Assembly (NCBI GenBank): GCA_030620915.1
Contig: JAUXIR010000001.1
Coordinates: 1 to 21,338, forward strand
Source: Geopsychrobacter sp.
GTDB lineage: Bacteria; Desulfobacterota; Desulfuromonadia; Desulfuromonadales; Geopsychrobacteraceae
Length of the DNA: 21,338 bases
Direction: 5' to 3'
Shown here: positions 2,929 to 21,338 of the stretch, piece after piece
How the letters are laid out: the number at the start of each line of letters is the position of its first letter
How positions within the stretch are numbered: position 1 is the stretch's first letter
Position numbers and translations under genes: made by a program
Notes under the pieces: generated by a model
What the model was told of the DNA's origin: nothing
Databases searched by the model: none
The model's input: the letters and a program-made list of their open reading frames with translations, nothing else

Positions 2929-3945
2929 TCAGCAGATCCGTGGCAACTGTTCTCCGGCGAGCATCTCGATTGCACGCAGGCCACCGATTGCGGTGCGCAT
3001 CATCACCCGTCCGGCAGAAACCTCTGTCACTTCGCCGATCATAGTCGCCTGCTCGCCGAACTCGCAGGCCTGCATCGTCACCAGGGCCGCATCGGCCACA
3101 TCGGCCGCAACAATCACCAGCAGCTTGCCTTCGTTGGCGACAAACATCGGATCCAGACCGAGGATGGCACAGGCCCCTGCCACCGCATCGTTCACCGGCA
3201 AGGCTTCCTCGGCGAGACAGATATCGACCTGCGACTGCAGGGCGATCTCCTTAAGCGTTGTCGCCACGCCACCACGCGTCGGGTCACGCAAGACATGGAT
3301 CGCCGCGCCGTGCTCTTCCAACAGTCTTGCCACGATCGCATTCAAGGGAGCACTATCGGTCTCAATTTCGCTCTGCAGCTCGAGCCCTTCGCGGCTCGCC
3401 AGCACCGCCATGCCGTGATCACCGATACTGCCGTTGATCAGCACCTTGTCGCCCGGTTGCGCAGCGCTGCCGACCGGTTTCAAATCATGATCGAAGACCC
3501 CGATGCCCGAGGTATTGATGAAGATCTTATCCCCCTTGCCGCGCGGCACAACCTTGGTATCGCCGGTGACAATCTTGACCTGGGCCTTGTCAGCGGCGAG
3601 CTTCATCGCCTCGAGAATTTCGCGCAACTCCTCAAGCAGCAGCCCCTCCTCCAGGATCAGACCAACACTGATCGCCAGGGGGCGGGCGCCACTCATCGCC
3701 AGGTCGTTGACCGTACCATTGATCGCCAGATCACCGATGTTGCCGCCGGGGAAGATGATCGGATCGACCACATAACTATCGGTGGTAAAGGCGATGCGCT
3801 TGCTCTCGATCCCCTCGAGTACCGCGGCATCGTTCTGCTCCGACCGGGCCACCTGCGAGAGGGTCGGGATAATCAACTCGTCGAGCAGCTGATGGCTCAG
3901 CTTTCCGCCGCTACCATGACCAAGCAGGATAATATCGTTTTTCAC
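2929..3945 (-). CDS. hypE: Hydrogenase maturation protein HypE
   Basis: HypE dehydrates the carbamoyl group delivered by HypF to its C-terminal cysteine, forming the thiocyanate that becomes the CN ligands of the [NiFe] active site iron. The 338-residue product shows the PurM/AIRS-like fold markers of the family: GHGSGGKL near the N-terminus, FTTDSYVV and GDLAVNGT-like segments, DPTRGGVATTLKEIA in the middle, and the essential C-terminal PRIC ending in the acceptor cysteine, so the protein is complete. The start is a GTG with GGAG about 9 nt upstream. It is the last gene of the minus-strand operon, separated from hypD by about 70 nt containing a direct repeat. HypF, its direct partner, is not encoded in this window. 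Confidence 0.96.
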   Translation of the reverse strand: MKNDIILLGHGSGGKLSHQLLDELIIPTLSQVARSEQNDAAVLEGIESKRIAFTTDSYVVDPIIFPGGNIGDLAINGTVNDLAMSGARPLAISVGLILEEGLLLEELREILEAMKLAADKAQVKIVTGDTKVVPRGKGDKIFINTSGIGVFDHDLKPVGSAAQPGDKVLINGSIGDHGMAVLASREGLELQSEIETDSAPLNAIVARLLEEHGAAIHVLRDPTRGGVATTLKEIALQSQVDICLAEEALPVNDAVAGACAILGLDPMFVANEGKLLVIVAADVADAALVTMQACEFGEQATMIGEVTEVSAGRVMMRTAIGGLRAIEMLAGEQLPRIC

Positions 3946-4016: not shown

Positions 4017-5111
4017 TTATACGTTCCCGTATTTATATTCCGCCGCGCAGGTGCCTTCGCTGCTCACCATACAGGCACCGACCGGATACTCGGGGGTACA
4101 GGCCTTGCGGAAGAGCGGACAGTCTTTCGGGCCGATCTTCCCCTTGAGGATTTCACCGCAGAGGCAGCCCTCATGCTCTTTCGGCTCTTCGACCTCGACC
4201 GGCAACGCGCTTAAGGCATTGAACTTCTGATATGCGGCGCGTAGCTGCAGACCACTGGCGGGGATCGGCCCGACCCCGCGCCAATCGGCATCGCAGGGTT
4301 CAAATACCCGCTCGAGAATTGCCTGGGCGGTGCGATTCCCTTCGGGCTTGACGATGCGGCTGTACTCGCATTCGAGCTTCGCTTCACCGGCAACAACCTG
4401 TCGGACCAGCAGCTGAATGCCACGCAGCATATCGACCGGTTCGAATCCGGTCACCACGCAGGGGACAGCATAATCATCGACCAAGGCCTGGTAAGCGTTC
4501 GAGCCGATCACCGCGCTGACATGGGCCGGGCAGATATAACCATCAACCTTAAGCTCTGGATCACTTGCCAATGCCGCCATCGGGGTCGGCATGGTCTTGT
4601 GGGCGCAGAGCACATAATAGTTCGACAACCCGCGTTTTTCGGCTTCGATCAGACTGCCGGCGACAGTCGGCGCGGTGGTTTCGAAACCAACCCCGAGAAA
4701 AACCACCGATTTGTCGGGGTTCTTTTCGGCGATGCCGAGCGCATCGAGGGGCGAGTAGACAATCCGGATGTCGGCCCCTTGCGCCTTCTCGCGCTGCAGG
4801 TTGCTGGTCGAACCGGGCACGCGGATCATATCGCCGAAGGTGGTTATGATGGTGTCGGGTCGGCGCGCATAGGCGACCGCCTGATCGACATAGCCGATCG
4901 GCGTCACGCAGACCGGGCACCCCGGGCCGCTGATCAGCCGCACCTGCGCTGGCAACAGACTGCGGATGCCATGCTGATAGATCGACATGGTGTGGGTGCC
5001 GCAGACCTCCATCAGGGTCATCTGCCCAGCGAAACCCTCAACATCGCGGGCAATCGCCGCAACCAAGGCCTTGGCCAGTTCGGGGTCACGATATTCGCTG
5101 CCGTACTTCAT
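4017..5111 (-). CDS. hypD: Hydrogenase maturation protein HypD
   Basis: HypD, with HypC, is the scaffold on which the Fe(CN)2CO unit of [NiFe] hydrogenases is assembled. All family signatures are present in the 364 residues: MEVCGTHTM and GPGCPVCVTP near the N-terminus (active-site cysteines), FETTAPT and CPAHVSAVIG in the middle, and the C-terminal cysteine cluster CLCGEILKGKIGP-KDCPLFRKAC that holds a [4Fe-4S] cluster. The length is normal for the family. The ATG overlaps the hypC stop codon by 4 nt (ATGA), so the two are translationally coupled, matching their physical complex. Confidence 0.97.
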   Translation of the reverse strand: MKYGSEYRDPELAKALVAAIARDVEGFAGQMTLMEVCGTHTMSIYQHGIRSLLPAQVRLISGPGCPVCVTPIGYVDQAVAYARRPDTIITTFGDMIRVPGSTSNLQREKAQGADIRIVYSPLDALGIAEKNPDKSVVFLGVGFETTAPTVAGSLIEAEKRGLSNYYVLCAHKTMPTPMAALASDPELKVDGYICPAHVSAVIGSNAYQALVDDYAVPCVVTGFEPVDMLRGIQLLVRQVVAGEAKLECEYSRIVKPEGNRTAQAILERVFEPCDADWRGVGPIPASGLQLRAAYQKFNALSALPVEVEEPKEHEGCLCGEILKGKIGPKDCPLFRKACTPEYPVGACMVSSEGTCAAEYKYGNV

Positions 5112-5341
5112 ACTTCAACCCCACCACCGGCATCGAGGACCTCGCGAAAGATCGCCAGGGTCTTTTCAGCCTCCACCGGGTCGATCTTCTCGATCGCAAA
5201 ACCGGCATGAAGCAGGACGTAATCACCGACCTCGGCATCTTCGAGCATCATCAGGCTCGCCTCACGGCGCACCCCGTCAACCTCACAAATTACAGTCCCC
5301 TCAGTAATTTCGGCAATCTTCATCGGCACAGCCAGACACAT
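5108..5341 (-). CDS. hypC: Hydrogenase maturation chaperone HypC
   Basis: HypC is a small chaperone that binds HypD and the hydrogenase large-subunit precursor and carries the iron unit. The product starts MCLAVPMKI, with the essential Cys2 exposed once the initiator Met is removed, and is 77 residues long, as expected. The reading frame stays open upstream to 5428, but only the internal ATG at 5341 gives the conserved N-terminus, and GGAG lies 9 nt before it. It overlaps hypD by 4 nt at its 3' end. The 90-nt gap to hypB upstream contains a large inverted repeat. Confidence 0.96.
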   Translation of the reverse strand: MCLAVPMKIAEITEGTVICEVDGVRREASLMMLEDAEVGDYVLLHAGFAIEKIDPVEAEKTLAIFREVLDAGGGVEV

Positions 5342-5372
5342 AATTTCAGCTCCATGAAAAAGAATAAAAATC

Positions 5373-5431: not shown

Positions 5432-6154
5432 TCAGCCTTTGGCTGCCACCTGCGCTTTCAACCAGGCATACCACTGATCGAGGCCCTCACCCGTGTAGCA
5501 GGAGACCTCGAAGATCTTGATCCCGGGATGTACCCGTTCGGCATATTCGCGACACCTGGCGACATCGAAGCGCAGGTGGGGCAGCAGATCGATTTAATTA
5601 ATCAGCATAATTTCGCTGTCCCGGAACAGCGGCGGATACTTGAGCGGCTTGTCTTCCCCCTCGGTGACCGACAGCAGTGTGACCTTGAAGTCCTCGCCGA
5701 GGTCGAAAGATGCGGGGCAAACCAGATTACCGACGTTTTCGATCATCATCATCTGGATCGTTTCGAGATCGAAATGCTCGAGACCATGGCCAACCATATG
5801 GGCATCGAGATGACAGCCCGCCCCGGTATTGATCTGATGGGCCGGGGTGCCGGTGGCGGCGATTCGGTCCGCATCATTGGTCGTCTGCTGATCCCCCTCG
5901 AGGACGGCAAAGTTGATTTCGTTTTTCAAATCAACCAGGGTCTTCTCCAACAGGCTGGTCTTGCCGCTGCCTGGTGAGCTGACCAGATTGAGGGTGAATA
6001 TCCCCTGCCTGGCGAACAACGCGCGGTTCCCCGCCGCCAAGCGATTATTCTTGGAGAGGATATCCTCTTCGACGCTGATGGTCTTACGTGGGGCTTCGGT
6101 CTCTTTGTGCTGATGGTCATGACCTGAAGGGCCACAGCCGCAGTCGATACACAT
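5432..6154 (-). pseudogene. hypB: Hydrogenase nickel-insertion GTPase HypB, interrupted by an in-frame TAA
   Basis: HypB is the SIMIBI-class GTPase that, with HypA, delivers nickel to the large subunit. The frame starts with MCIDCGCG (the CxxCGC high-affinity nickel site), then a histidine-rich patch HDHQH, a P-loop SSPGSGKT near residues 59-66, and GCHLDAHMV with the metal-binding Cys/His at the dimer interface. After 186 codons it reads LIN-TAA-IDLLPH: the stop (5594-5596) replaces the lysine of the conserved NKxD (here N-stop-I-D) G4 motif. The same frame continues without further stops or shifts for 53 codons, giving IDLLPHLRFDVARCREYAER to a natural TGA at 5432-5434, about the usual HypB length. 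One base change (AAA to TAA) explains it. The 186-aa product would lack nucleotide specificity. It could be a real nonsense mutation, a sequencing error or readthrough. It starts 2 nt after hypA. Confidence 0.88.
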
Positions 6155-6156
6155 GG

Positions 6157-6498
6157 TCAGTCGATCTCCATTTCTTTGATACGCATCTCTTCACCGCAGA
6201 CCAGATCGCTGGCTGCGCTGTTGCACACCGGGCAGCAGGCCAGAAGATCGGTCAACGGATATTCAGCAGCACAGTCGCGGCAGCGCGCCCTGGCCTGAAT
6301 CTCTTCGATGATCAGCACACTGCCTTCAAGCAGGCTGTCTTGACTGCAGGCCTCGTAACAAAATTCAAGAGCCTCTGCAACCACCCCGGCCAGCGAACCA
6401 ACCTCCAGGGTGACAGAATGAATTTTTTTGGCCTGCTGTCCGGCGGCGGTACGCAGTGCAATCTCAACAATACTCTGGGTGATTCCAAGTTCGTGCAA
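6157..6498 (-). CDS. hypA: Hydrogenase nickel-incorporation protein HypA
   Basis: HypA is the nickel metallochaperone that works with HypB. From a TTG start at 6498 the product reads [15 protein letters not shown], placing the essential nickel ligand His2 directly after the start. An AAAGGAA ribosome binding site lies about 7 nt upstream. A longer frame to 6549 would bury the His, so it was not used. The zinc-binding domain has CRDC and CCPVC pairs about 12 residues apart. The product is 113 residues, normal for the family. It is the first gene of the minus-strand hypABCDE operon and ends 2 nt before hypB; its promoter must lie in 6499-6946. Confidence 0.95.
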
Positions 6499-6946
6499 AA
6501 CTTTTCCTTTACCTGAGAACCTATGGGACTCTCCATGAACCGGCTGCAAATCCGATCATTTGGCCCATATTTCAGCTCTTTTTTGCCCCATAGCTACGGC
6601 TATGCGCCCGCAAACGTGCTAAAATCTGCTCTCAAATGCTCGAATTTTCGCTTCGGTCCAGCAAGTCCAACAGGTTCCCTGACGGGGGGCGTTCCGCTAT
6701 AGTCTCAAAAATAGCTCAGCGTTCTGCCCGGCCAGACTATCGATCGACTGGCTCCCAATCAAACTGACCCGCAAAAAAGCGGCATCCTTTTTGTATATCG
6801 GTCCAATACGCACTCGACAGAGCGCATACTATAGATTCAACCCGGCAGAAAAATCAAGCGGCGCAAAAATCAAATTCTGCCCTTAATTCACATATTTAGA
6901 GTATTTAACCGTATACGGTTCACGAGCCCCACGGAGCACTGTACTG
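6499..6946. promoter_or_regulatory. Divergent intergenic region between hypA and the regulator
   Basis: This 448-nt gap must contain the promoters of the hyp operon (leftward) and the regulator gene (rightward). I searched both strands for GG-N10-GC sigma-54 sites and found none that also carry the TGGC/TTGC flanks. Visible structure: a hairpin CATAGC-TACG-GCTATG at 6590-6605 and a perfect 14-bp palindrome AACCGTATACGGTT at 6907-6920 just upstream of the regulator. The part nearest hypA (about 6540-6700) looks like a dispersed element rather than unique promoter DNA, but this cannot be confirmed here. Confidence 0.5.
6907..6920. promoter_or_regulatory. 14-bp perfect palindrome upstream of the response regulator gene
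   Basis: AACCGTATACGGTT is fully self-complementary and lies 26 nt before the ATG at 6947. Its position fits an operator for autoregulation of the regulator gene. The core GTATAC recurs upstream of other operons in the window. Confidence 0.55.
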
Positions 6947-8597: not shown

Positions 8598-10157
8598 ATG
8601 GCAAAAATCGTAATCGATCCGATCTCCCGTATCGAAGGCCACATGAAGATCGAAGTCGTGGTTGATAACGGGATCGTCAAGGAAGCCCAAAGCTCCGGCA
8701 TGATGTATCGCGGGCTGGAGAATATTCTCCTCGGCCGTGACCCACGCGATGCTTCGCGTATCATGCAGCGCATCTGCGGCGTCTGCCCGACCTCACACGG
8801 TCTGGCGGCGACCTACGCCCTCGACGAGGTCTATAATGTCAACGGCAGCATCACCGATAACGGACGCATCATCCGCAACCTGATTCAGGGTGCCAACTTC
8901 GTCCAGTCACACATCCTGCAATTCTATCATCTCTCCGCCCTCGATTATGTCGATGTGACCGCCTGCGCCGACTACAGCGGCAGCGATCCGGCGATGAAGA
9001 AGGTCAAGGATTTCATCGCCCGCGGACACCTGGGTCCCTTCATGCCACGCTACGAGGGTGACTACCGTCTGAGCAAGGGCGAAAACCAGGCCGCCGTCGC
9101 CCACTATGTCGAGGCCCTCGACATGCGCCGCCTGGCCCACGAAGCGGTCGCCGTCTTCGGCGGTAAGATCCCACACAACATGTCGATCGTACCCGGCGGT
9201 GTCACGGTCGCGCCGACCATTGATAAAATCGCTTCCTTCCTGTGGAAGATCGAGCGCCTGATCGATTTCATCGACAGCCGCTATCTGCCCGACGTGCTGA
9301 TGGTCGCCGGTCGCTACAGCGACTACTTCGGGATCGGCGCCGGCTGCAAGACCATGCTCAGCTTCGGCGGTTTCGATCTCGACAGCAACCCCGACCTGGT
9401 CGCCCGCAAGCGCTACTTCCCCAACGGTATCGTCGGTGCCGATTTCAAACTGCGCGAGCTCGATCCAACCAAGATCACCGAAGAGGTGGTCAGCAGCTGG
9501 TTCCAGGAGACCGGACCGGTTCACCCCTACGATGGTTCAACCGTCGCCGAGCGCGACAAGGCCGGTGCCTACAGCTGGATCAAATCGCCACGCTATGCCG
9601 GCGAGGTCATGGAAGTCGGCCCACTGGCACGCATAATCGTTGCCTACGTCCGCGGCGACAAAGAGGTCCAGACCCTGGTCAATGGCGTGCTCAAGAAGTT
9701 CAACGCCGGTCCCGATGTCCTCTTCTCGACCCTCGGCCGCCATGCCGCGCGGGTCATCGAGTGTAAAATCGTTGCCGAACGCCTCAAGGACTGGGTCCTC
9801 CAGCTCAAGCCCGGCGAGCCGACCTTCACCGACTATCCGCTCAACGTCAGCAACCGCGGCATGGGTCTGCACGAAGCACCACGCGGCGCCCTGGGCCACT
9901 GGATCGACGTGGTCGATGGCAAGGTCAAGAACTATCAGGCGATCGTACCGACCACCTGGAACGCCGGACCGGTCGATGCCAAGGGCCAACCGGGCCCCAT
10001 CGAGCAATCGCTGATCGGCACCAGGGTCAAGGACGAGCGCAACCCCTTCGAACTGGTACGGATCGTCCGCGCCTATGATCCCTGCCTCTCCTGCGCCGTA
10101 CACGTCGTCACTCCCAAGGGTGAAGATCTCGGCCGCTTCGTGGTAGGTGGCGAGTGA
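8598..10157 (+). CDS. hybL: [NiFe] hydrogenase large subunit, periplasmic uptake type
   Basis: This 519-residue protein carries the H2-activating Ni-Fe(CN)2CO centre. The N-terminus has the RIEGH motif, followed by the L1 motif RICGVCPTSH with nickel ligands Cys60 and Cys63, and near the C-terminus the L2 motif DPCLSCAVH with Cys496 and Cys499. The 17 residues after His502 form the C-terminal extension normally removed by a dedicated protease once nickel is in place; that protease is the next gene. It has no selenocysteine. AGGAGAG precedes the ATG. It is exported with the Tat-tagged small subunit. In this operon it comes before the small subunit, the reverse of most hydrogenase operons. Expression is probably sigma-54 dependent. 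Confidence 0.97.
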   Translation: MAKIVIDPISRIEGHMKIEVVVDNGIVKEAQSSGMMYRGLENILLGRDPRDASRIMQRICGVCPTSHGLAATYALDEVYNVNGSITDNGRIIRNLIQGANFVQSHILQFYHLSALDYVDVTACADYSGSDPAMKKVKDFIARGHLGPFMPRYEGDYRLSKGENQAAVAHYVEALDMRRLAHEAVAVFGGKIPHNMSIVPGGVTVAPTIDKIASFLWKIERLIDFIDSRYLPDVLMVAGRYSDYFGIGAGCKTMLSFGGFDLDSNPDLVARKRYFPNGIVGADFKLRELDPTKITEEVVSSWFQETGPVHPYDGSTVAERDKAGAYSWIKSPRYAGEVMEVGPLARIIVAYVRGDKEVQTLVNGVLKKFNAGPDVLFSTLGRHAARVIECKIVAERLKDWVLQLKPGEPTFTDYPLNVSNRGMGLHEAPRGALGHWIDVVDGKVKNYQAIVPTTWNAGPVDAKGQPGPIEQSLIGTRVKDERNPFELVRIVRAYDPCLSCAVHVVTPKGEDLGRFVVGGE

Positions 10158-10645
10158 TTGCTCAACCTCTGACAGCGCCCTATGCGCCGGTTCTGGTGAT
10201 GGCGGTCGGCAATATCCTCAAACAGGATGACGGCTTCGGCGAGACCGTGCTACGCCGCCTCGAAGAGCAGGAGCTCCCCGGCGAGGTCGAACTGTTCGAC
10301 GCCGGGACCAGCGCCATCGACCTGATGGAGATCTTCAACGGTCGCGAGAAGCTGATCGTGATCGATGCCGTGCGCGGCGGCCAACCGGCCGGCAACCTCT
10401 ATCGTTTTTCTCCGGAGGAGGTCGAGGACCAGGCGTTGCCGATGAACACCCTGCACCAGGTCGGCCTGCTCGAAACCCTGCGCCTGGGTGAACTGGTCGA
10501 CTGCAAGCCGAAATCGACCGTCATTATCGGCTGTCAACCGGAGCAGACCGAGCTCGGCATCGGCCTGAGCGAGACGGTTGCCGCCAAGGTCGACAAAGCA
10601 ACCGAGCTGGTGTTGAAAGAGATCAACGATTTTTTGAATTCATAA
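10154..10645 (+). CDS. hybD: Hydrogenase maturation endopeptidase (HybD/HupD/HyaD family)
   Basis: The enzyme cleaves the C-terminal extension of the preceding large subunit after the conserved His, locking in the active site. The 163-residue product shows the family nickel-sensing residues: an acidic group in GNILKQDDGFGE near the N-terminus, Asp in FDAGTSAID and His in MNTLHQVG. The GTG start overlaps the large subunit stop by 4 nt (GTGA), which couples the two. That start adds about 10 residues before the usual family N-terminus; an in-frame ATG at 10200 would cut into the fold. A 20-nt gap precedes the small subunit. Confidence 0.95.
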   Translation: MIAQPLTAPYAPVLVMAVGNILKQDDGFGETVLRRLEEQELPGEVELFDAGTSAIDLMEIFNGREKLIVIDAVRGGQPAGNLYRFSPEEVEDQALPMNTLHQVGLLETLRLGELVDCKPKSTVIIGCQPEQTELGIGLSETVAAKVDKATELVLKEINDFLNS

Positions 10646-10665
10646 TTATTTAGGAGATAACAACC

Positions 10666-11769
10666 ATGGCGATTTCACGTCGTAATTTTCTCAAGGTATC
10701 CGCAGGCAGTGCCGCCGCAATCGGCGTCAACCTGTTCGACAACCCGACCCTGCGCAGCGCGTTTGCCGATGCTATCAAGGAGACACCGATCATCTGGCTC
10801 GCCGCCGGCGCCTGCTCCGGCTGCAGCGTTTCGCTGCTCAACAGCCTTTCGCCGCGCATCCAGGATGTGCTGCTCGACCAGGTCATCCCAGGCCATCACA
10901 CCGAGATGGCCTGGCACCCGACCATCATGGCCGCTTCCGGCGATCTGGCGATGGAACACATGTACAAGGTTGAAGAAAAACCCTTCATCCTGGTGGTTGA
11001 AGGTTCGGTCGGTCGCGCTGAAAACGGCACCTACATGGAAGTCGGCGAGCGTAACGGCCACGGTATCCCGATCACCGAGCACGTCGAGCGTCTCGGCAAA
11101 AAAGCCATTGCAGTTCTCGCCGTCGGTAGCTGCGCCGCCTACGGTGGGATCAACAAGGCCAACATGAACCCGAGCGATTCGGTCGGCGTCGGCGAGTTCT
11201 TCAAAGAGAAAAATATCAGCACCCCGCTGATCAACCTGCCCGGCTGTGCGGTGCATCCCGACTGGTTCGTCAGCACCGTCGCCGCCATCCTGCTCGGCGG
11301 CCTCGAAGCGGTCAAGGTCGATGAGCTTGGCCGCCCGCTGATGCACTACAAGAAGCTGATCCACGACAACTGCCCGCTGCGCGGCCACTTCGATGCCGGC
11401 CGCTTCGCCGAGAAGTTCTCCGACGAATTCTGCCTCTACAAGCTCGGCTGCAAGGGTCCGGTGACCCACTCCAACTGTGCGGAGAAGAGATTCAACTCCG
11501 GCACCAACTGGTGTATCGAGAACCGCCATCCCTGCATCGGTTGCACAGAACCGGAGTTTCCCTACGAGGGTTCGATGCACGACAAGGTTCAGCTGCAACA
11601 GGTCACCCCGCCGGCAGCCTATCCGCCGATCTCCACCGAGCACAAGCAGGGTGTCGACTTCACCCCGACCTATGGCGCCCTGGCCGGTCTGGCCGTCGGC
11701 GCAGCCGGCATGAACATGCTGAAAAAGGGTGACAACGGCGATCAGGGTGATCTGGACGAAAAGGAGTAA
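10666..11769 (+). CDS. hybS: [NiFe] hydrogenase small subunit, Tat-exported and membrane-anchored
   Basis: The small subunit relays electrons from the active site through three iron-sulfur clusters. It starts with a twin-arginine signal SRRNFLKVSAG. Proximal-cluster ligands lie in CSGC (Cys50, Cys53), GSCAAYG and PGCAVHPDW. The distal and medial ligands lie in the HDNCPLRGHF to HPCIGC part. At the medial site the sequence reads NWCIENRHPCIGC with Cys283 where standard enzymes have Pro, so the medial cluster may be [4Fe-4S] rather than [3Fe-4S]. The two extra cysteines of oxygen-tolerant enzymes are absent (CSGC, and CAAYGG). A C-terminal hydrophobic helix (about YGALAGLAVGAAGMNML) followed by charged residues should anchor it in the membrane. 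AGGAG precedes the ATG. Confidence 0.96.
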   Translation: MAISRRNFLKVSAGSAAAIGVNLFDNPTLRSAFADAIKETPIIWLAAGACSGCSVSLLNSLSPRIQDVLLDQVIPGHHTEMAWHPTIMAASGDLAMEHMYKVEEKPFILVVEGSVGRAENGTYMEVGERNGHGIPITEHVERLGKKAIAVLAVGSCAAYGGINKANMNPSDSVGVGEFFKEKNISTPLINLPGCAVHPDWFVSTVAAILLGGLEAVKVDELGRPLMHYKKLIHDNCPLRGHFDAGRFAEKFSDEFCLYKLGCKGPVTHSNCAEKRFNSGTNWCIENRHPCIGCTEPEFPYEGSMHDKVQLQQVTPPAAYPPISTEHKQGVDFTPTYGALAGLAVGAAGMNMLKKGDNGDQGDLDEKE

Positions 11770-11772
11770 GTG

Positions 11773-12678
11773 ATGGCTATGGACCGGAGAAAATTCTTCA
11801 AGGTCGCAGCTGCCGGGTGCGGAACCGCCGCCTGTGCCGTCGCCACACCGGCATTTGCCTCCGAAAAGGCAAAACTGGTCGGCGCCGACGGTTACGGCAT
11901 GCTGCAGGATTCGGTGCGCTGCATCGGTTGCAAGGCCTGCCAATCGGCCTGCAAACAAGTCAATAAACTGGACCCCGATTCCAGTCTTAACGAAAACTAC
12001 TATGACTCTCCGCGTGAACTCTCGGAGAACACCTACACCCTGATCAAGATGCATCAGGATGAAAAAGGCGAGGCGACCTTCGTCAAGAAGCAGTGCATGC
12101 ACTGCATCGACCCCGCCTGCCAGTCGGCGTGCCTGGTCGGCGCGCTGACCAAACAACAGAATGGTGCAGTCAGCTGGGATGGCGATAAATGCATGGGTTG
12201 TCGCTACTGCATGGTGGCCTGCCCTTACAACGTGCCGCAGTTCCAGTGGAAAGAGGCGATTCCCGACATCAGCAAGTGCACCCTGTGCGAGGAGACCCGC
12301 CTCAAGAAAAATCTGCCGACCGGTTGCTCAAGCGCCTGTCCGGCCGGAGCGATCAGCTTCGGCAAACGGGATGAACTGCTGAAGATCGCCAAAGAGAGGA
12401 TCGCCGCCGGTCCCGAGCTCTACCTGGATCACATTTATGGCGAGACCGAAGTCGGCGGCACCAACGTGCTCTATCTGACCAAGAAGCAGGTCGCCTTTGC
12501 CACCATCGGCCTGCCGAAGTTCGGCTACAAGGCACCACCACGGCTGACCGAAGGCATTCAGCACGGGGTCTTCAAGTACTTTATTCCACCGGTCGCGATC
12601 TATGCGGCACTGGGCGGCATCATGGCTTTCACCAACCGCAAAAACAAGCAAGAGCAAGAAGGAGGGTCCGATGAGTAA
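11773..12678 (+). CDS. hybA: HybA-type periplasmic iron-sulfur electron-transfer subunit
   Basis: HybA passes electrons from the small subunit to the membrane subunit HybB. It has a Tat signal (MDRRKFFKVAAAGCG), four cysteine-rich groups for four [4Fe-4S] clusters (CIGCKACQSAC, CMHCIDPACQSAC, CMGCRYCMVACPYN, CTLCEE with CSSACP), and a single C-terminal transmembrane helix (YFIPPVAIYAALGGIMAF) followed by a lysine-rich tail, typical of HybA. The ATG at 11773 follows AGGAG by 8 nt; a GTG one codon earlier and an ATG two codons later are alternatives. It lies 3 nt after hybS and overlaps hybB by 8 nt. Its tail helix contains Pro-Pro and Gly-Gly, helix-weakening residues relevant to the nearby rhomboid protease. 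Confidence 0.95.
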   Translation: MAMDRRKFFKVAAAGCGTAACAVATPAFASEKAKLVGADGYGMLQDSVRCIGCKACQSACKQVNKLDPDSSLNENYYDSPRELSENTYTLIKMHQDEKGEATFVKKQCMHCIDPACQSACLVGALTKQQNGAVSWDGDKCMGCRYCMVACPYNVPQFQWKEAIPDISKCTLCEETRLKKNLPTGCSSACPAGAISFGKRDELLKIAKERIAAGPELYLDHIYGETEVGGTNVLYLTKKQVAFATIGLPKFGYKAPPRLTEGIQHGVFKYFIPPVAIYAALGGIMAFTNRKNKQEQEGGSDE

Positions 12679-13849
12679 AGCGGCACCTTTACATCAGAAA
12701 TTCTGGACCGCGAACGTTTGGCTGCTGGTCTTCTTCATGGTTTCAGCCGCCGTCTTCGGCTACTTCCGTTTCGTCTACGGCTTCGGTTCGGTGACCAACC
12801 TCAACCCCAGTTACCCGATGGGGATCTGGATCGCCTTCGACGTCGCCTGCGGCGTTGCCCTGGCGGCCGGCGGCTTCACCACCTGCCTGGTGGTCGAAAT
12901 CTTCGGCCGGCAAAAGTACCATGCGCTGCTGCGCCCGGCACTGCTGACCGCCTTCATCGGCTACATGCTGGTGGCGATGGCGGTCATGTTCGATCTCGGC
13001 CGCTGGTACTACATCTGGCACACCCTGGTCTACTGGAACGGCAACTCGGTCCTCTTCGAGGTGGCCTGGTGTGTCATGCTCTATCTCAACGTCCTGGCGA
13101 TCGAGAACCTGCCGAACGTGATTGATCAATACAAGGGTCGCGTCAATCTGCCCGGGCCACTTGCGGCCTTCAACAATTCGACCGACAGCTTTCTGGGTAG
13201 CGCGGAAAAAATCCTCCGCCGCGTCGGGGTCTTCTTCGTCATTGCCGGTGTGGTGCTCTCCTTCGGCCACCAGTCATCCCTCGGCACCATGATGCTGATC
13301 GCACCCTACAAGCTCCACGAGCTCTGGATGACCGCCTGGTCGCCGCTGCTCTTCCTGCTTTCGGCCATGAGTGTCGGTCTGCCGATGGTGATCTTCGAAG
13401 GAACCCTGGCCACCTACTTCTTCAACCGTAAGTCGGAACTGCCGTTGCTGGCCGACCTGGCGCGGATCATCCCGATCTTCCTCGGCGCCTTCCTGTTGCT
13501 GCGCTTCAGCGATCTGATCTATCGCGGTGCGCTTGCCGAGGTCCTCAGCGGCAGTCGTCAGGACAACGCCTTCCTGGTTGAGATTGCGTTCTTCTGCGTC
13601 CCCTTCGTGCTGCTCTTTGTGCGCAAGGTACGCGAAAACGGCACCGGCCTCTTCCTCTGCGCCCTGTCGATTATCTGTGGCGTGGTCGCCTACCGCTTCA
13701 ACGTCTTCCTGATCGGGATGGACATGGGCGGCGGTTGGGAATACTTCCCCTCGGTCGGTGAATTTGCCGTCACCTTCGGCTTTCTGGCCTTCGGTGTCTT
13801 CCTCTACAAACTTGCGGTGAACTACCTGCCGATCCTGGAGGATCACTGA
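12671..13849 (+). CDS. hybB: HybB, NrfD/PsrC-family quinone-linked membrane subunit
   Basis: The 392-residue polytopic protein has about ten hydrophobic segments and belongs to the NrfD/PsrC family, which hands electrons from periplasmic iron-sulfur subunits to menaquinone. Typical stretches include NLNPSYPMGIWIAFDVACG near the first helices and LGRWYYIWHTLVYWN. The ATG at 12671 is preceded by GGAGGG; the frame is open upstream but that part is the hybA sequence in another frame. It overlaps the hybA stop by 8 nt and ends the operon, 28 nt before a hairpin terminator. Together with hybA it shows the enzyme works as a respiratory uptake hydrogenase rather than with a cytochrome b subunit. Confidence 0.95.
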   Translation: MSKAAPLHQKFWTANVWLLVFFMVSAAVFGYFRFVYGFGSVTNLNPSYPMGIWIAFDVACGVALAAGGFTTCLVVEIFGRQKYHALLRPALLTAFIGYMLVAMAVMFDLGRWYYIWHTLVYWNGNSVLFEVAWCVMLYLNVLAIENLPNVIDQYKGRVNLPGPLAAFNNSTDSFLGSAEKILRRVGVFFVIAGVVLSFGHQSSLGTMMLIAPYKLHELWMTAWSPLLFLLSAMSVGLPMVIFEGTLATYFFNRKSELPLLADLARIIPIFLGAFLLLRFSDLIYRGALAEVLSGSRQDNAFLVEIAFFCVPFVLLFVRKVRENGTGLFLCALSIICGVVAYRFNVFLIGMDMGGGWEYFPSVGEFAVTFGFLAFGVFLYKLAVNYLPILEDH

Positions 13850-14439: not shown

Positions 14440-14484
14440 TTAGCGTATACACCCTTGGATGCACGTTGCCACCTGGAGGTTAGG

Positions 14485-15468
14485 ATGACCGCTCGTACCG
14501 GACAGACGCCCCGCCTGCTGCGCCAGACCCCGGCAACGGCACTGCTTTTTCTGACCTCGGCAACCCTGAGTCTGACCCTCTCGTTCATTCCCAACTCCAA
14601 CCATCCCGATATCCTCAGCAGCTTTGGCTGGGGAGAACAAAGTCTGCTCTGGCAAGGCGAACTCTGGCGCCTGCTGGTCAATAATATTCTGCATATCAAC
14701 ATCTTTCACTTTCTGTTTAACGCCTACTGGTTGCTTCATTTCGGGCCTGCCGTTGAACGAATCCTCGGCCGACGTTTTTATTTGACCGGCCTGCTCTTCA
14801 GCGCCTGGATGATCGCTAGCCTCAGCCAACTCAGCTGGGAAGCTGGCGGGATCGGCCTGTCGGGCCTGATCTACTTCCTCTTTGCCGTGCTCTGGCGGCT
14901 GCGCAGCAGCGAACCCCTGGCCCGGAAACTCTGCGACCCTGCAACCTGCAACCTCTTATGGATCTGGCTGATCCTGATCGGACCGGGCCTGACGCTCACC
15001 GGGCTGGTCAAGGTCGGCAATCTGGTTCATTTCACCGGACTCATCTGCGGCCTGATGACCGCCGAAGTTTTTCGGCATCGCGCAAAACTTTTTCAACCCC
15101 TCTGGGCCGCAGGCCTGGCGCTACCGACTGTTGCCCTGATTCTAGCCTCAGCCGTTTACCTTCAACAGCCTTTTTTAAATGCCGATTGGCACTATTGGGC
15201 GGCCTACAACAGTGACAGCCCAAGTGCGCAGATAGAGCATTATCGAGCCGCACTCGAAATCGATCCTGAAAATCAGCGCGTGCGCTATAACCTGGCCCTG
15301 AGCTACTACCAACAGGGCAATATCAAACAGGCCGAAGCTTTATGGTTGGCCTGCCCGCCGGACCGTCAAGTCAGTCAGGCGCTCTTTGCGCTCTACGCCT
15401 CGCAGGGAGACACCGACGGCATGACTCGCTGGGCTTCGCGTCTGCAGTTGCAAGCACGGCTAAATTAA
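14485..15468 (+). CDS. Rhomboid-family intramembrane serine protease with C-terminal TPR
   Basis: Rhomboids cut transmembrane helices within the membrane. The 327-residue product has about six to seven hydrophobic segments. The family signature of the second helix is clear: WRLLVNNILHINIFHFLFNA, with two His and an Asn, then FGPAVERILG. The catalytic GxSG is GLSG with Ser126, and the partner His is His182 in VHFTG. After the last helix comes a soluble region with one clear tetratricopeptide repeat (roughly 245-285, HYRAALEIDPENQRVRYNLA) and probably a second, which would bind partner proteins. The ATG at 14485 has GGAGG 5-6 nt upstream; an ATG-less extension to 14455 was rejected. It lies between two hydrogenase operons. 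Absolute family identity is strong; the substrate is unknown. Confidence 0.85.
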   Translation: MTARTGQTPRLLRQTPATALLFLTSATLSLTLSFIPNSNHPDILSSFGWGEQSLLWQGELWRLLVNNILHINIFHFLFNAYWLLHFGPAVERILGRRFYLTGLLFSAWMIASLSQLSWEAGGIGLSGLIYFLFAVLWRLRSSEPLARKLCDPATCNLLWIWLILIGPGLTLTGLVKVGNLVHFTGLICGLMTAEVFRHRAKLFQPLWAAGLALPTVALILASAVYLQQPFLNADWHYWAAYNSDSPSAQIEHYRAALEIDPENQRVRYNLALSYYQQGNIKQAEALWLACPPDRQVSQALFALYASQGDTDGMTRWASRLQLQARLN

Positions 15469-15590: not shown

Positions 15591-17498
15591 GTGGTTTTCA
15601 AAATCGTGCCTGCAAACATACCCCTAACACGCCAAGACTCACTGGATGAGACCCTTTGGCTGGCGATGAGTCAGGCCGAAATTCTGCGTTTTGCGCGTGC
15701 ATTGATGCAGGCCTACGACGTCGTAGGCCCCAGACGCAAGAAAGGCCGGATCTCTCTCGGCACCCTGAGCGACGCGGCCGACCTTGAACTTGAATTTCCG
15801 CCATCGGTCCACTCACCGAAAAAATTCCTCTTTCCGCACTGGGATGAACTCTTCCGTTTCAAACTCGAAGGAAATGTCCTGCTTGAGCCGGAAAGTGCCG
15901 CACCGCCGCGCATCATCTTCGGCATGCACCCCTGCGATCTGCACGCGGTCAAAATTCTCGATGACTGCCTGTTTGAGGGGGAGACCGACAGCACCTACCG
16001 TGCCAAACGCGAGGCAACCCTGCTGATCGGCGTTGACTGCGTTCCCGATGAGCACTGCTTCTGCACCAGTCTCGGCACCGACCGAATCGCCAACGGCTTC
16101 GATCTTTTTTTCCATCGCCGCGATGACAGCTATCTGGTCCAAACCGGCAGCGACCAGGGCCGTCAACTGCTTGCCGACCACGCGCCTGAAACCATGGCTG
16201 GCGCCCATGAGGCCCCGCTGGCGCTGCAGGTCAAACAATGTGAAAGCCATCTGCAATTTCCGACCGAATCGCTACCGCTGTTGATGAAGGATGCCTACGA
16301 GGATCCGATCTGGAAACGTCTCGGCACAGACTGCCTCGGATGTGGTGGCTGCACCCTGCTCTGCCCCAGTTGTTACTGCTTCAATGTTCAAGACAAACTG
16401 GAACTCGATCTCAAGGAAGGCCAACGGGTTCGCACCTGGGATAGCTGCCAGTTCGACCAGTTTGCCAAGGTCAACAATGGCGACAACTTCCGTTCAAGCC
16501 AGTCCGACCGTCAGCGCCACCGCTTCTATCGCAAATACAAATACCTGTGGGATCAGCATCAGCGTACCGCCTGCGTCGGTTGTGGCCGCTGCAGCCGAGA
16601 ATGTCTGGCCAGGATCAAGCCGACCGAGGTATTGAACGAGCTTTTCAGCCAGACCCCGCCACAACAACTTGAAACCAGTCCCGGCAGTGAATACCAGCCA
16701 CAGATGGCCAGGGTCGAACGGATCGAAGTGATTTCAAACGATGATCGACTGTTCCGCCTCAAGGTCCCGGCAAGTTTCAACTTTCTGCCGGGCAGTTTTC
16801 TGCAGGTTTCAGTCTTCGGCCTGGGCGAGGCGCCATTTTCCATCGCCTCGCCCCCCGATGGCAGCGATGAAATCGAACTGGTGGTTCGTCGTGCCGGAGC
16901 CCTGACCCAGGCACTGCATCGGGTGAGAAGTGGTGACCGTATCGGCATCCGCGGGCCTTTTGGCAATGGATATCCACTCGAAAAAATGCAAGGCAAAGAT
17001 CTGCTGCTGGTCGCGGGTGGCCGTGGCCTGATCGCCCTGCGTTCGCTGATGCTCTCGCTTCTGGCCAAGCGCGATAATTATGGGCGGATCACCCTGCTAT
17101 GCGGCGCCCGTTCAATCGAAACGCTGCTCTTTCAGGAAGATCTGCTCGCCTGGCACCGCTCGGGACTGATCGACTGCCGCTTTTCGGTCAATGAACAAGG
17201 GAACAGTTGGGGAATCCCGGCGACCGATGTCAGTTATCTGTTTCGTGACCTCGATATCAACGCCAGTCGCACGATTGCCGCAGTTTCCGGACCGCCTGAA
17301 ATGTACCGCCAGATCAACCCGCTGCTCTTCCGGCTCGGATTGCCCGACGAGGAGATCTATCTCAACCTTGAGCGACACATGAAATGTGGCCTGGGGAAAT
17401 GCGGGAAATGTCGCATCAACAACATCTGCGTTTGCGAATGTGGCCCGATCTTCCCCTACAGCAGCGTCAAACACATGGCCGAGGCAATAGAGCGATGA
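15591..17498 (+). CDS. Fused HydB-HydG: iron-sulfur plus FAD/NAD(P)H oxidoreductase subunit of group 3b hydrogenase
   Basis: The 635-residue protein joins two polypeptides that are separate in archaeal sulfhydrogenase (HydB, HydG) and in anaerobic sulfite reductase (AsrA, AsrB). Residues about 25-350 are HydB-like, with two [4Fe-4S] groups: CLGCGGCTLLCPSC (from Cys248) and CVGCGRCSREC (from Cys328). After a short linker, residues about 370-635 are HydG-like: a flavin-binding barrel with PFSIAS, a nucleotide-binding VAGGRG, and a C-terminal [2Fe-2S] group CGLGKCGKC (from Cys599) with later Cys. The unit should pass electrons between NAD(P)H and the hydrogenase. The start is unsettled: GTG at 15591 and 15606 and ATG at 15666 are in frame and none has a good ribosome binding site; family similarity begins near SQAEILRFA (15669). 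It overlaps the next gene by 4 nt. Confidence 0.88.
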   Translation: MVFKIVPANIPLTRQDSLDETLWLAMSQAEILRFARALMQAYDVVGPRRKKGRISLGTLSDAADLELEFPPSVHSPKKFLFPHWDELFRFKLEGNVLLEPESAAPPRIIFGMHPCDLHAVKILDDCLFEGETDSTYRAKREATLLIGVDCVPDEHCFCTSLGTDRIANGFDLFFHRRDDSYLVQTGSDQGRQLLADHAPETMAGAHEAPLALQVKQCESHLQFPTESLPLLMKDAYEDPIWKRLGTDCLGCGGCTLLCPSCYCFNVQDKLELDLKEGQRVRTWDSCQFDQFAKVNNGDNFRSSQSDRQRHRFYRKYKYLWDQHQRTACVGCGRCSRECLARIKPTEVLNELFSQTPPQQLETSPGSEYQPQMARVERIEVISNDDRLFRLKVPASFNFLPGSFLQVSVFGLGEAPFSIASPPDGSDEIELVVRRAGALTQALHRVRSGDRIGIRGPFGNGYPLEKMQGKDLLLVAGGRGLIALRSLMLSLLAKRDNYGRITLLCGARSIETLLFQEDLLAWHRSGLIDCRFSVNEQGNSWGIPATDVSYLFRDLDINASRTIAAVSGPPEMYRQINPLLFRLGLPDEEIYLNLERHMKCGLGKCGKCRINNICVCECGPIFPYSSVKHMAEAIER

Positions 17499-18223
17499 AA
17501 ACCAGAATCGGCTTTTTCGACTTCACCGGCTGCGAGGGCTGTCAACTGACCGTCATGAACCTGGAGAATGACCTGCTGCAGGTCCTGCAACTGGTTGAGG
17601 TGGTCGAATTTCGTGAACTGATGTCAGAAGAGGTCAGTGAGATCGATATCGCCTTCATCGAAGGGAGCATCACTCGCCGTCAAGATCGTGAACGGCTACA
17701 GACGATCCGTGAGCGCAGCAAAATCCTGGTCGCCCTTGGCGCCTGCGCCGACAACGGTGGCGTCAACCTGCTGGCCAGCAATCAGGATGTCGCCTCACTG
17801 CGCCAACAGGTCTACGCCAGCGATGCTGAGCACCTGCAAACCTTTACCCCCCTGCCCCTACACAGGGTGGTAAAGGTTGATTATCGCATTCCCGGCTGCC
17901 CTATCGATGGCCAAGAATTTCTGGCGGTCATGCAGGCGCTGCTGCTTGAGCGTGAACCAGAGCTGCCGAATTTCGCGGTATGCGTAGAATGCAAGCTGGC
18001 CGAGTACCCTTGCAGCTTTGACTACGGTGAGATCTGTTTGGGCCCGGTGACCCGCGCGGGCTGCCGTGCGATCTGCATTGAGGGGGGGGATCGCTGCCGC
18101 GGCTGCCGCGGGCTGGTCGATAACCCACGCACCAGCCCTTACCATAAGGTACTCGAGGAGCACGGTCTGAGCGTACAGGAGATCCTTGAGCAGTACCGCA
18201 TCTTTCATATCGGTGAGGAATAA
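17495..18223 (+). CDS. hydD: Group 3b [NiFe] hydrogenase small subunit (HydD-like)
   Basis: The 242-residue protein is a cytoplasmic [NiFe] hydrogenase small subunit: there is no Tat signal or anchor. Proximal-cluster ligands lie in TGCEGCQ (Cys13, Cys16), GACADNGG and PGCPIDGQE. The C-terminal part adds two cysteine groups, CVECKLAEYPC with GEICLGPVTRAGC and CRGCRGLV, for further [4Fe-4S] clusters, as in the sulfhydrogenase/F420-nonreducing branch. The ATG at 17495 overlaps the stop of the fused subunit (ATGA); a longer frame upstream is the previous gene read out of frame. It ends in TAATG, overlapping the large subunit by 1 nt, so the three genes are tightly coupled. Confidence 0.94.
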   Translation: MKTRIGFFDFTGCEGCQLTVMNLENDLLQVLQLVEVVEFRELMSEEVSEIDIAFIEGSITRRQDRERLQTIRERSKILVALGACADNGGVNLLASNQDVASLRQQVYASDAEHLQTFTPLPLHRVVKVDYRIPGCPIDGQEFLAVMQALLLEREPELPNFAVCVECKLAEYPCSFDYGEICLGPVTRAGCRAICIEGGDRCRGCRGLVDNPRTSPYHKVLEEHGLSVQEILEQYRIFHIGEE

Positions 18224-19509
18224 TGAGCCGCAAGATCACACTCAACCATCTGACCAGAATCGAAGGTCACGCTCATCTGATCATCGACAAACAAGCCGGC
18301 AAGATTGAATCCTGCCGACTCGAAGTCGTTGAATCACCCCGTTTTTTCGAAGCACTCCTCAAGGGCCGTCACTTCAGTGACATTGCGCCGATTGTTGCGC
18401 GGGTCTGCGGGGTCTGCTCCATCTCCCACACCATGGCCTCGCTGATGGCGACCGATAACGCCCTGGGGATCGAACCCGACCCGCGCGCGAAAGTACTGCG
18501 CCGCCTGCTCAGTCAGGGGGAGATTCTACAGAGCCACCTGCTTCAACTCTACTTCATGGCGGCTCCCGATTATCTTGGCATACCGAGTATCTTCCAACTA
18601 CTCACCCAACGCAGTGACCTGTTCAGCCGGGCCTTGCGCTTGAAACGCACCGCCAACCGGATCTGTGAGGTGGTTGGCGGCCGCGCGGTTCATCCGGTAA
18701 CCACGGCGATCGGTGGATTCTCATCACTCCCCGAAGCGAGTGAACTCAAACAGTTGCGTCAGGAACTGGTCGATGCCCTGCCCGATCTTGAGGCAACCGT
18801 CGAACTTTTTGCCGGCTTTGACTTCCCCGATTTTTCGCGGCCAGCTGAGCAGGTCTGCCTCGAGCAGAGCGGCCAGTATCCGCTACACGCCAACCGCGTG
18901 ATCAGTAGCTGTGGTATCAACCAGAGCGTTGTGCAATTCAAGGCCTCCATCGACGAATATATTGTGCCCCACTCAACCGCTAAAATGGCCCGCACCGAAC
19001 GCGGCCACTATTGTGTCGGCGCTCTGGCACGGGTCAAGAACAGCTATGGTCGCCTGTCACCGATGGCACAAAAGGTTGCTACGGCCCTGCAGATGACCCC
19101 CGAGACCGACAACCCCTTTCATGGGCTCAAGGCCCGGCTGATCGAGGTGATCCATTTTGTCGAAGAGGCGATTCACGCCATCGATGATCTGCTGCTGCAT
19201 AGCTTCGCCAGCGCACGCGCGACTGCCATGCCGAAGGGCGGCGGCCAGGGGGTCGCTGCGGTCGAGGCTCCACGAGGGTTGCTGTTTCATGCCTATAGCT
19301 ATGATCAAGACGGCTTGCTCGAAACCGCCGACTGCATTATCCCGACGGCGCAGAACCTGGCCAGCATCGAAGCGGATATCGAAAGCCTGCTGCCTGCCCT
19401 GCTCGACCTGCCGGACGAGCAACTCAAACAACGCGTCGAAACCCTGATCCGCTCTTATGACCCCTGTCTCAGTTGCTCGACCCATCAGTTACGGGTTGCC
19501 ATCAAGTAA
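18223..19509 (+). CDS. hydA: Group 3b [NiFe] hydrogenase large subunit (HydA-like)
   Basis: This 428-residue large subunit carries the Ni-Fe site of the cytoplasmic enzyme. L1 is RVCGVCSISH with Cys62 and Cys65; L2 is DPCLSCSTH with Cys415 and Cys418. Only seven residues (QLRVAIK) follow the conserved His421, a short tail that a protease would have to remove. No second maturation protease is present in the window; the one in the hyb operon would have to serve both, or another lies elsewhere. The shorter length compared with the hyb large subunit and the lack of export signals fit the cytoplasmic NAD(P)-linked type. It ends the operon and converges on the cytidylate-kinase-like gene 21 nt away, with no clear terminator between. 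Confidence 0.94.
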   Translation: MSRKITLNHLTRIEGHAHLIIDKQAGKIESCRLEVVESPRFFEALLKGRHFSDIAPIVARVCGVCSISHTMASLMATDNALGIEPDPRAKVLRRLLSQGEILQSHLLQLYFMAAPDYLGIPSIFQLLTQRSDLFSRALRLKRTANRICEVVGGRAVHPVTTAIGGFSSLPEASELKQLRQELVDALPDLEATVELFAGFDFPDFSRPAEQVCLEQSGQYPLHANRVISSCGINQSVVQFKASIDEYIVPHSTAKMARTERGHYCVGALARVKNSYGRLSPMAQKVATALQMTPETDNPFHGLKARLIEVIHFVEEAIHAIDDLLLHSFASARATAMPKGGGQGVAAVEAPRGLLFHAYSYDQDGLLETADCIIPTAQNLASIEADIESLLPALLDLPDEQLKQRVETLIRSYDPCLSCSTHQLRVAIK

Positions 19510-20433: not shown

Positions 20434-21338
20434 ATGTCGGTCAAATCACAATCAGGATTTCGATTTCTAATCTTTCACAAAATGGCACTGATCGGGACGC
20501 TCGGCCTAATCGGCATGCTGCTCTTAGGCGGGATCGGTTACCGCGCCACGCATCGCATCGACGACGCGGCTCGCCAGAGCCTGGAACGCGATGAAGGAGT
20601 CCGCGCACGGCTGGTTTCAACCTATGATCAGGCCTTGGCCAGCCAAGAACAAGCGCGCATTCTCGGCGATCTGAATCGACAACTCATCGAACTGCAGCAA
20701 ACGGTTATCTCTGGTCAGCGCATGGGACTGAGCGCCGAACAGATTCTGCAACAGGCCAAACAGCTGGCGATTGAAGCCCAGATCATCAACCAGGTACCTG
20801 GCCATGAACGCCTGATTGAAGGGACCAAGAAGACCCTGGGAGAGGTCACTGTTTCCAACTTTGAGGATGTCGCAACCCTGCTCGAATTTGAGCTCTTGGA
20901 CCTCTACGAGCTACAGATTGGTTCAAACGAACACAGCCAGAAACTGGGCGAGATTTCGGTTTCGTTGGCGAGCATGTATTTCTTTATCTCGAAAAACATC
21001 AAAGAGATGTCCGACAAGAATATGGCCCGAGTTGCAGAAACACGCGGCATGCTGCAGGAGGAATTAACTAAAGCCGAAACTGAGGCCGTTGCAGCGCGTA
21101 CCGATCTATCCGAAGTGACCAGTGCCGCCAGCTTCGCCCTGATCAGCGTTTTTACTGCCACGCTGATTCTGTTGGGGGCCATCTTCGGCATTTTTGCCCG
21201 CAGCCTGGTTATCCCCTTGCAACGAACCGTTGACATGGCACGCGCTCTGCGTTTGGGACGCGTATCAACCCGCCTGGCCGATACTGAGCGCGGTGATGAG
21301 TTCGGTTCTATGGCACGTGCGCTCAATGAGTTTGCCGA
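20434..21338 (+). CDS. Methyl-accepting chemotaxis protein-like receptor, 5' part (runs off right edge)
   Basis: From the ATG at 20434 (AGGAG 6 nt upstream) the frame is open to the window end, 301 codons. The product begins with a short cytoplasmic stretch, a transmembrane helix at about residues 17-34 (MALIGTLGLIGMLLLGGIGY), a periplasmic helical sensor domain of about 190 residues rich in Gln/Glu/Leu, a second transmembrane helix around 229-251 (FALISVFTATLILLGAIFGI), then a HAMP domain (RSLVIPLQRTVDMARALRLG with GDEFGSMARALNEF). This is the front half of a chemoreceptor; a HAMP-containing sensor kinase or cyclase remains possible because the signalling domain is beyond the edge. A kinase here would be of interest as partner for the orphan regulator. 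Confidence 0.85.
   Translation, partial: MSVKSQSGFRFLIFHKMALIGTLGLIGMLLLGGIGYRATHRIDDAARQSLERDEGVRARLVSTYDQALASQEQARILGDLNRQLIELQQTVISGQRMGLSAEQILQQAKQLAIEAQIINQVPGHERLIEGTKKTLGEVTVSNFEDVATLLEFELLDLYELQIGSNEHSQKLGEISVSLASMYFFISKNIKEMSDKNMARVAETRGMLQEELTKAETEAVAARTDLSEVTSAASFALISVFTATLILLGAIFGIFARSLVIPLQRTVDMARALRLGRVSTRLADTERGDEFGSMARALNEFA

Follow-up and report, generated by a model that had tools for sequence, protein, structure and literature searches.

The window analysed here is a whole stretch of 21,338 nucleotides, contig C311 of a Geopsychrobacter sp. genome assembled from environmental DNA (2.04 Mb in 378 contigs, 70.18% complete). A cluster of hyp genes occupies its minus strand. 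Four of these are open, namely hypA (6157-6504; TIGR00100, 94.2 bits), which has orthologues in seven genomes of the same genus, hypC (5108-5353; TIGR00074, 80.5 bits), hypD (4017-5111; TIGR00075, 472.9 bits) and hypE (2929-3945; TIGR02124, 420 bits). The fifth, the hypB frame at 5432-6154, is interrupted at 5594-5596. It has the setting of a hyp operon, with hypA upstream and hypC, hypD and hypE downstream, and the order is the same in those relatives whose contigs are long enough. HypF is matched in part only, from the edge of a contig onwards (G000:C3:2-1177, profile positions 349-739 of 741), as is expected from a fragmentary assembly. A TGA inside a HypF-family match on contig C359 of the same genome turned out to be a natural gene end, that of a short protein named acylphosphatase-like from its sequence.

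Two hydrogenase sets follow on the plus strand. The first, a [NiFe]-hydrogenase set at 8598-13849, is open throughout and encodes a large subunit, a maturation protease, a small subunit, an Fe-S protein and an NrfD-like membrane subunit (PF00374, PF01750, PF14720/PF01058, PF13247, PF03916). The large subunit and protease precede the small subunit, in an order identical to that of the same-genus genome G001. The second set (15591-19509; PF17179, PF00970, PF01058, PF00374), also open, encodes an Fe-S/FAD/NAD-binding subunit, a small subunit-like protein and a large subunit. Between both sets, at 14455-15468, lies the gene of a rhomboid-domain protein with C-terminal TPR matches, which G001 has too. 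A third [NiFe]-hydrogenase set, again open, lies outside the window on contig C110 of this genome (L051, G000:C110, 5858-9843, minus strand); it encodes a small and a large subunit, a cytochrome b and a maturation protease. When compared with the stretches fetched from seven congeners, 16 of the 18 window proteins have near-full-length orthologues in at least one of them, and no congener match above 50% identity turns up in those stretches for the two proteins encoded at 436-1209 and 20434-21336. The original prediction had likewise taken the surrounding hyp genes and both hydrogenase operons of the window to look intact.

The hypB frame runs on the minus strand from an ATG at 6154 to a natural TGA at 5432-5434. 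Its codon 187 is an in-frame TAA (5594-5596, minus strand), and the frame reads ...EIMLIN*IDLLPHLRF... at this point. Ahead of the stop is an open part of 186 amino acids (5594-6154, minus strand, with the TAA), which comprises a Cys/His-containing N-terminus and the P-loop SSPGSGKT and extends up to the strand before G4. Past the stop are 53 conserved codons (5435-5593, minus strand), including the G5-like SCYTGEG. The coding signal is strong on either side of the TAA, no second stop or frame break was found in the frame, and hypB is the sole convincing interruption found in the window. The profile TIGR00073 matches the open 186 amino acids with 230.4 bits, against a cut-off of 121.2, and the match rises to 283.6 bits when the TAA is read across. 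On PF02492, which is 180 positions long, the open part matches positions 4-151 and an intact relative 4-179; the P-loop part of the former is complete.

Its family, place in the hyp operon, P-loop and conserved segments as far as residue 186 put the gene among the HypB nickel-insertion GTPases (TIGR00073; structures 4lps, 2wsm and 2hf8/2hf9). Codon 187 aligns with the K of "INKV" in the Archaeoglobus fulgidus protein (2wsm), and the G5 loop falls within the lost part, whereas the lysine that aligns with Lys-148 of AfHypB is present in the truncated protein. Unlike known HypB proteins of the family, this frame is broken at the NKxD lysine, and three nearby residues depart from all seven congeners; the uninterrupted G domain with NKxD (G4) and G5 is lacking, since the TAA stands at the G4 lysine. 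The G4 motif of HypB can itself vary, as shown by the non-canonical NKxA of the A. fulgidus protein (PMC3262836). In that protein another residue stands in place of the aspartate, whose role passes to an Asp of the G5 loop, and the lysine and the G5 region are kept; in the present frame, by contrast, translation would stop ahead of both.

In all 29 aligned relatives, codon 187 is a lysine codon, either AAA or AAG, and none of them shares the TAA. The three points made earlier about this codon, that an in-frame TAA replaces the NKxD lysine, that the frame then continues cleanly for 53 codons to the TGA, and that a single substitution explains the stop, therefore hold: the first by the alignments with relatives and 2wsm, the second by the translated frame, and the third because it fits the codons of the relatives, the very comparison with close hypB genes that had been proposed as a check. 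When 7999 candidates of a protein collection were scored and the best 120 of the 7999 listed, the truncated HypB (P0001) appeared among the matches listed as one sequence in one contig, whose length is that of the window. The 119 other HypB homologues among these matches are 222-259 amino acids long and have K at the codon-187 column, so that none shares the stop, and none of those listed exceeds 90% protein identity. Across the order, hypB is found in 86 of 136 genomes (own included), with 91 matches of which a few are partial, and just one of the 91, the interrupted one, contains a premature stop. Stops flagged in the hypB of G019 and G026 are natural gene ends, and G019 also has a weak match of 24% identity with a TAA. 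In the listed titles and first parts of abstracts, no report of such a hypB stop was found.

The 60 genomes searched (own included) contain eight congeners; seven of these have a single hypB each, stop-free and of 81-90% identity, and the eighth, 89% complete, is without a hypB match. In the assembled part of the genome studied here, about 70% complete, no second HypB was found, and the sole HypB match is the interrupted one. Four weaker PF02492 matches lie elsewhere in this genome, which also holds two FKBP-family matches that may or may not be SlyD. A plasmid search gave distant hyp genes only and no record with 80% of the query. Another HypB as a bypass, one of the options suggested earlier, was not found in the roughly 70% of the genome that is assembled.

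The gene itself bears no clear marks of decay. Non-synonymous codon changes before and after the TAA number 22/184 and 6/53 relative to G006 (Fisher p 1.0), 22/185 and 9/53 relative to G007 (p 0.47), and 21/186 and 4/53 relative to G001 (p 1.0), the tests being run on non-synonymous against synonymous changes; the codons past the TAA are as well conserved as those ahead of it. Eight residues of this hypB, including the stop, depart from one shared by all seven congeners (0-5 in the others), and twelve do so in its hypD (0-10 in the others). Counted by nucleotide, hypB has 9 non-synonymous and 5 synonymous changes private to this genome. The corresponding ratio is 22:17 for the remaining four hyp genes (p 0.76) and 55:91 for seven further window genes pooled (p 0.08, the lowest p obtained); for the private changes of the hypB of five congeners (two others left out) it is 21:19 (p 0.54). 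An old pseudogene or relaxed selection was rejected on these grounds, there being no further lesions and no significant non-synonymous excess. With no clear sign of relaxed selection, the stop is either recent or not real.

Just before the stop, residues 175, 176 and 179 (5618-5632) differ from all seven congeners, all by transversions. These changes could be local error or real divergence. With residue 187 included, a span of 15 codons holds four private non-synonymous transversions. In the seven congeners, clusters of this kind reach at most 3, 3, 4 and 5 changes in four genomes and 1, 1 and 2 in the other three. As the cluster at 175-187 is high but not unique, nothing is drawn from it. The position of the stop is itself a coincidence of sorts: of the 240 codons of hypB, 61 either are a stop or become one by a single substitution, so that a single nonsense event would hit the lysine of codon 187 with a chance of about 1 in 60, for a site singled out post hoc.

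The general quality of the assembly was assessed by a dicodon screen for in-frame stops, aimed at premature stops and not frameshifts. It covered 140,204 bases, made up of the window and, out of the 377 other contigs, a sample of 20 (118,866 bases). On its own training frames the thresholds recovered 8546 of the 9473 positions tested; the rival-frame filter added later was uncalibrated. An earlier screen had caught just 9040 of 22605 eligible positions. The output consists of 16 rows, one of them hypB. In twelve of the other 15 a start codon follows no more than 14 codons behind the stop; these were treated as gene junctions, of which only those of L051 and L052 were read closely. The remaining three lack such a start and are antisense to longer open frames (L047 has two of them, L064 one). 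With this uncalibrated filter, the 118,866 bases sampled from the 20 contigs thus yielded no second convincing case of an interrupted gene, and the 140,204 bases screened no other convincing in-frame TAA. The absence of a second interruption in the sample argues that the assembly is not generally error-ridden, and the rarity of premature stops tempers the view that this one is an error.

What the stop represents can now be weighed. The reading we prefer, with a probability of roughly 0.5, is a consensus error: the TAA would stem from one incorrect base in one contig of this fragmentary assembly, and the organism would carry an ordinary, complete HypB with the lysine in NKxD. It is favoured because the truncated form occurs in one assembly only among those searched, while the rest of the frame is open and conserved and no examined relative has the stop; because hypB is single-copy in seven of eight congeners and three open hydrogenase sets should need it; and because the assembly is in 378 contigs and 70.18% complete. 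We infer that most cells of the population lack the TAA. A genuine, very young nonsense mutation is also quite possible. Its product would end at residue 186, before the K-x-D of G4, and would lack the G5 loop along with the C-terminal portion of the G domain, so that GTP binding should be abnormal and high-affinity nickel insertion should fail, with hydrogenase activity lost or dependent on high nickel. A one-base difference from the relatives suffices for such a mutation, and both the lack of a second interrupted gene in the sampled 118,866 bases and the 9:5 ratio of private changes set against 55:91 in seven window genes (p 0.08) speak for it. HypB is reported as essential for nickel delivery (PMC3262836), and E. 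coli mutants in hypB can be rescued with nickel at low-millimolar concentrations (PMC12134894). This rescue speaks for a young loss, and the same phenotype would be expected here, as predicted from sequence alone, if HypB is truly broken. Against a young mutation stand the partner genes and three hydrogenase sets, all open, the lack of a significant excess when hypB is compared with the four hyp genes (p 0.76) or with the hypB of five congeners (p 0.54), and the absence of the TAA from every other assembly among the matches listed. The consensus error and the very young mutation therefore lie close together, with the error slightly favoured.

Far less probable is a UAA that is read through or suppressed, so that a full-length HypB is made with one amino acid or another at position 187, perhaps as a regulatory switch. 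The frame past the TAA is indeed open and conserved, but such conservation is equally expected under an error or a young mutation. Neither of the features that mark programmed readthrough, a stop conserved among relatives and a stimulatory structure 3' of it, is seen: the TAA is absent from all relatives examined, the 100 nucleotides from the stop fold no better than shuffled sequences (z 0.14), and the 120 nucleotides around it show no unusual structure relative to shuffles (z 0.70). TAA is moreover a normal terminator in this window, where it ends 8 of the 15 other genes. When ARAGORN was applied to the 12 tRNA loci of the genome, it gave 12 tRNA genes with 9 anticodons (four being Met/CAT), none of which reads UAA; the assembly lacks many tRNAs, and with so incomplete a set this absence is weak evidence. 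A bacterial reporter study gives 0.08% readthrough for UGA and 0.01% for UAG in one setting, and 12% for UGA in E. coli; the stop constructs named in the relevant passages are UAG and UGA, not UAA (PMC9481147). It is more doubtful still that UAA is decoded here at a useful rate, such that HypB and three hydrogenases would be controlled by readthrough inside the G4 motif. Least probable of all is an old functional short HypB, or a HypB split into two polypeptides. The complete P-loop part speaks for such a form, but the first 40 codons after the stop contain no in-frame ATG, GTG or TTG, no short relative occurs among the 119 other homologues listed, and both G5 and the K-x-D of G4 fall in the part that is lost. 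The options laid out in the original prediction were thus sensible ones, among which a wrong base or a very young loss is favoured and readthrough is disfavoured.

The one-base nonsense event in hypB is correctly observed but ordinary. Neither an error nor a young mutation amounts to a new mechanism. If the TAA is an error, it calls for caution, since one base in an assembled genome can fake the loss of a central maturation factor. If it is a true nonsense allele, it should disable three hydrogenases at ordinary nickel levels, given that HypB is needed for their nickel. In that case the lineage would have lost specific nickel insertion yet keep three hydrogenase sets, and the loss of one gene should silence a whole metabolism.
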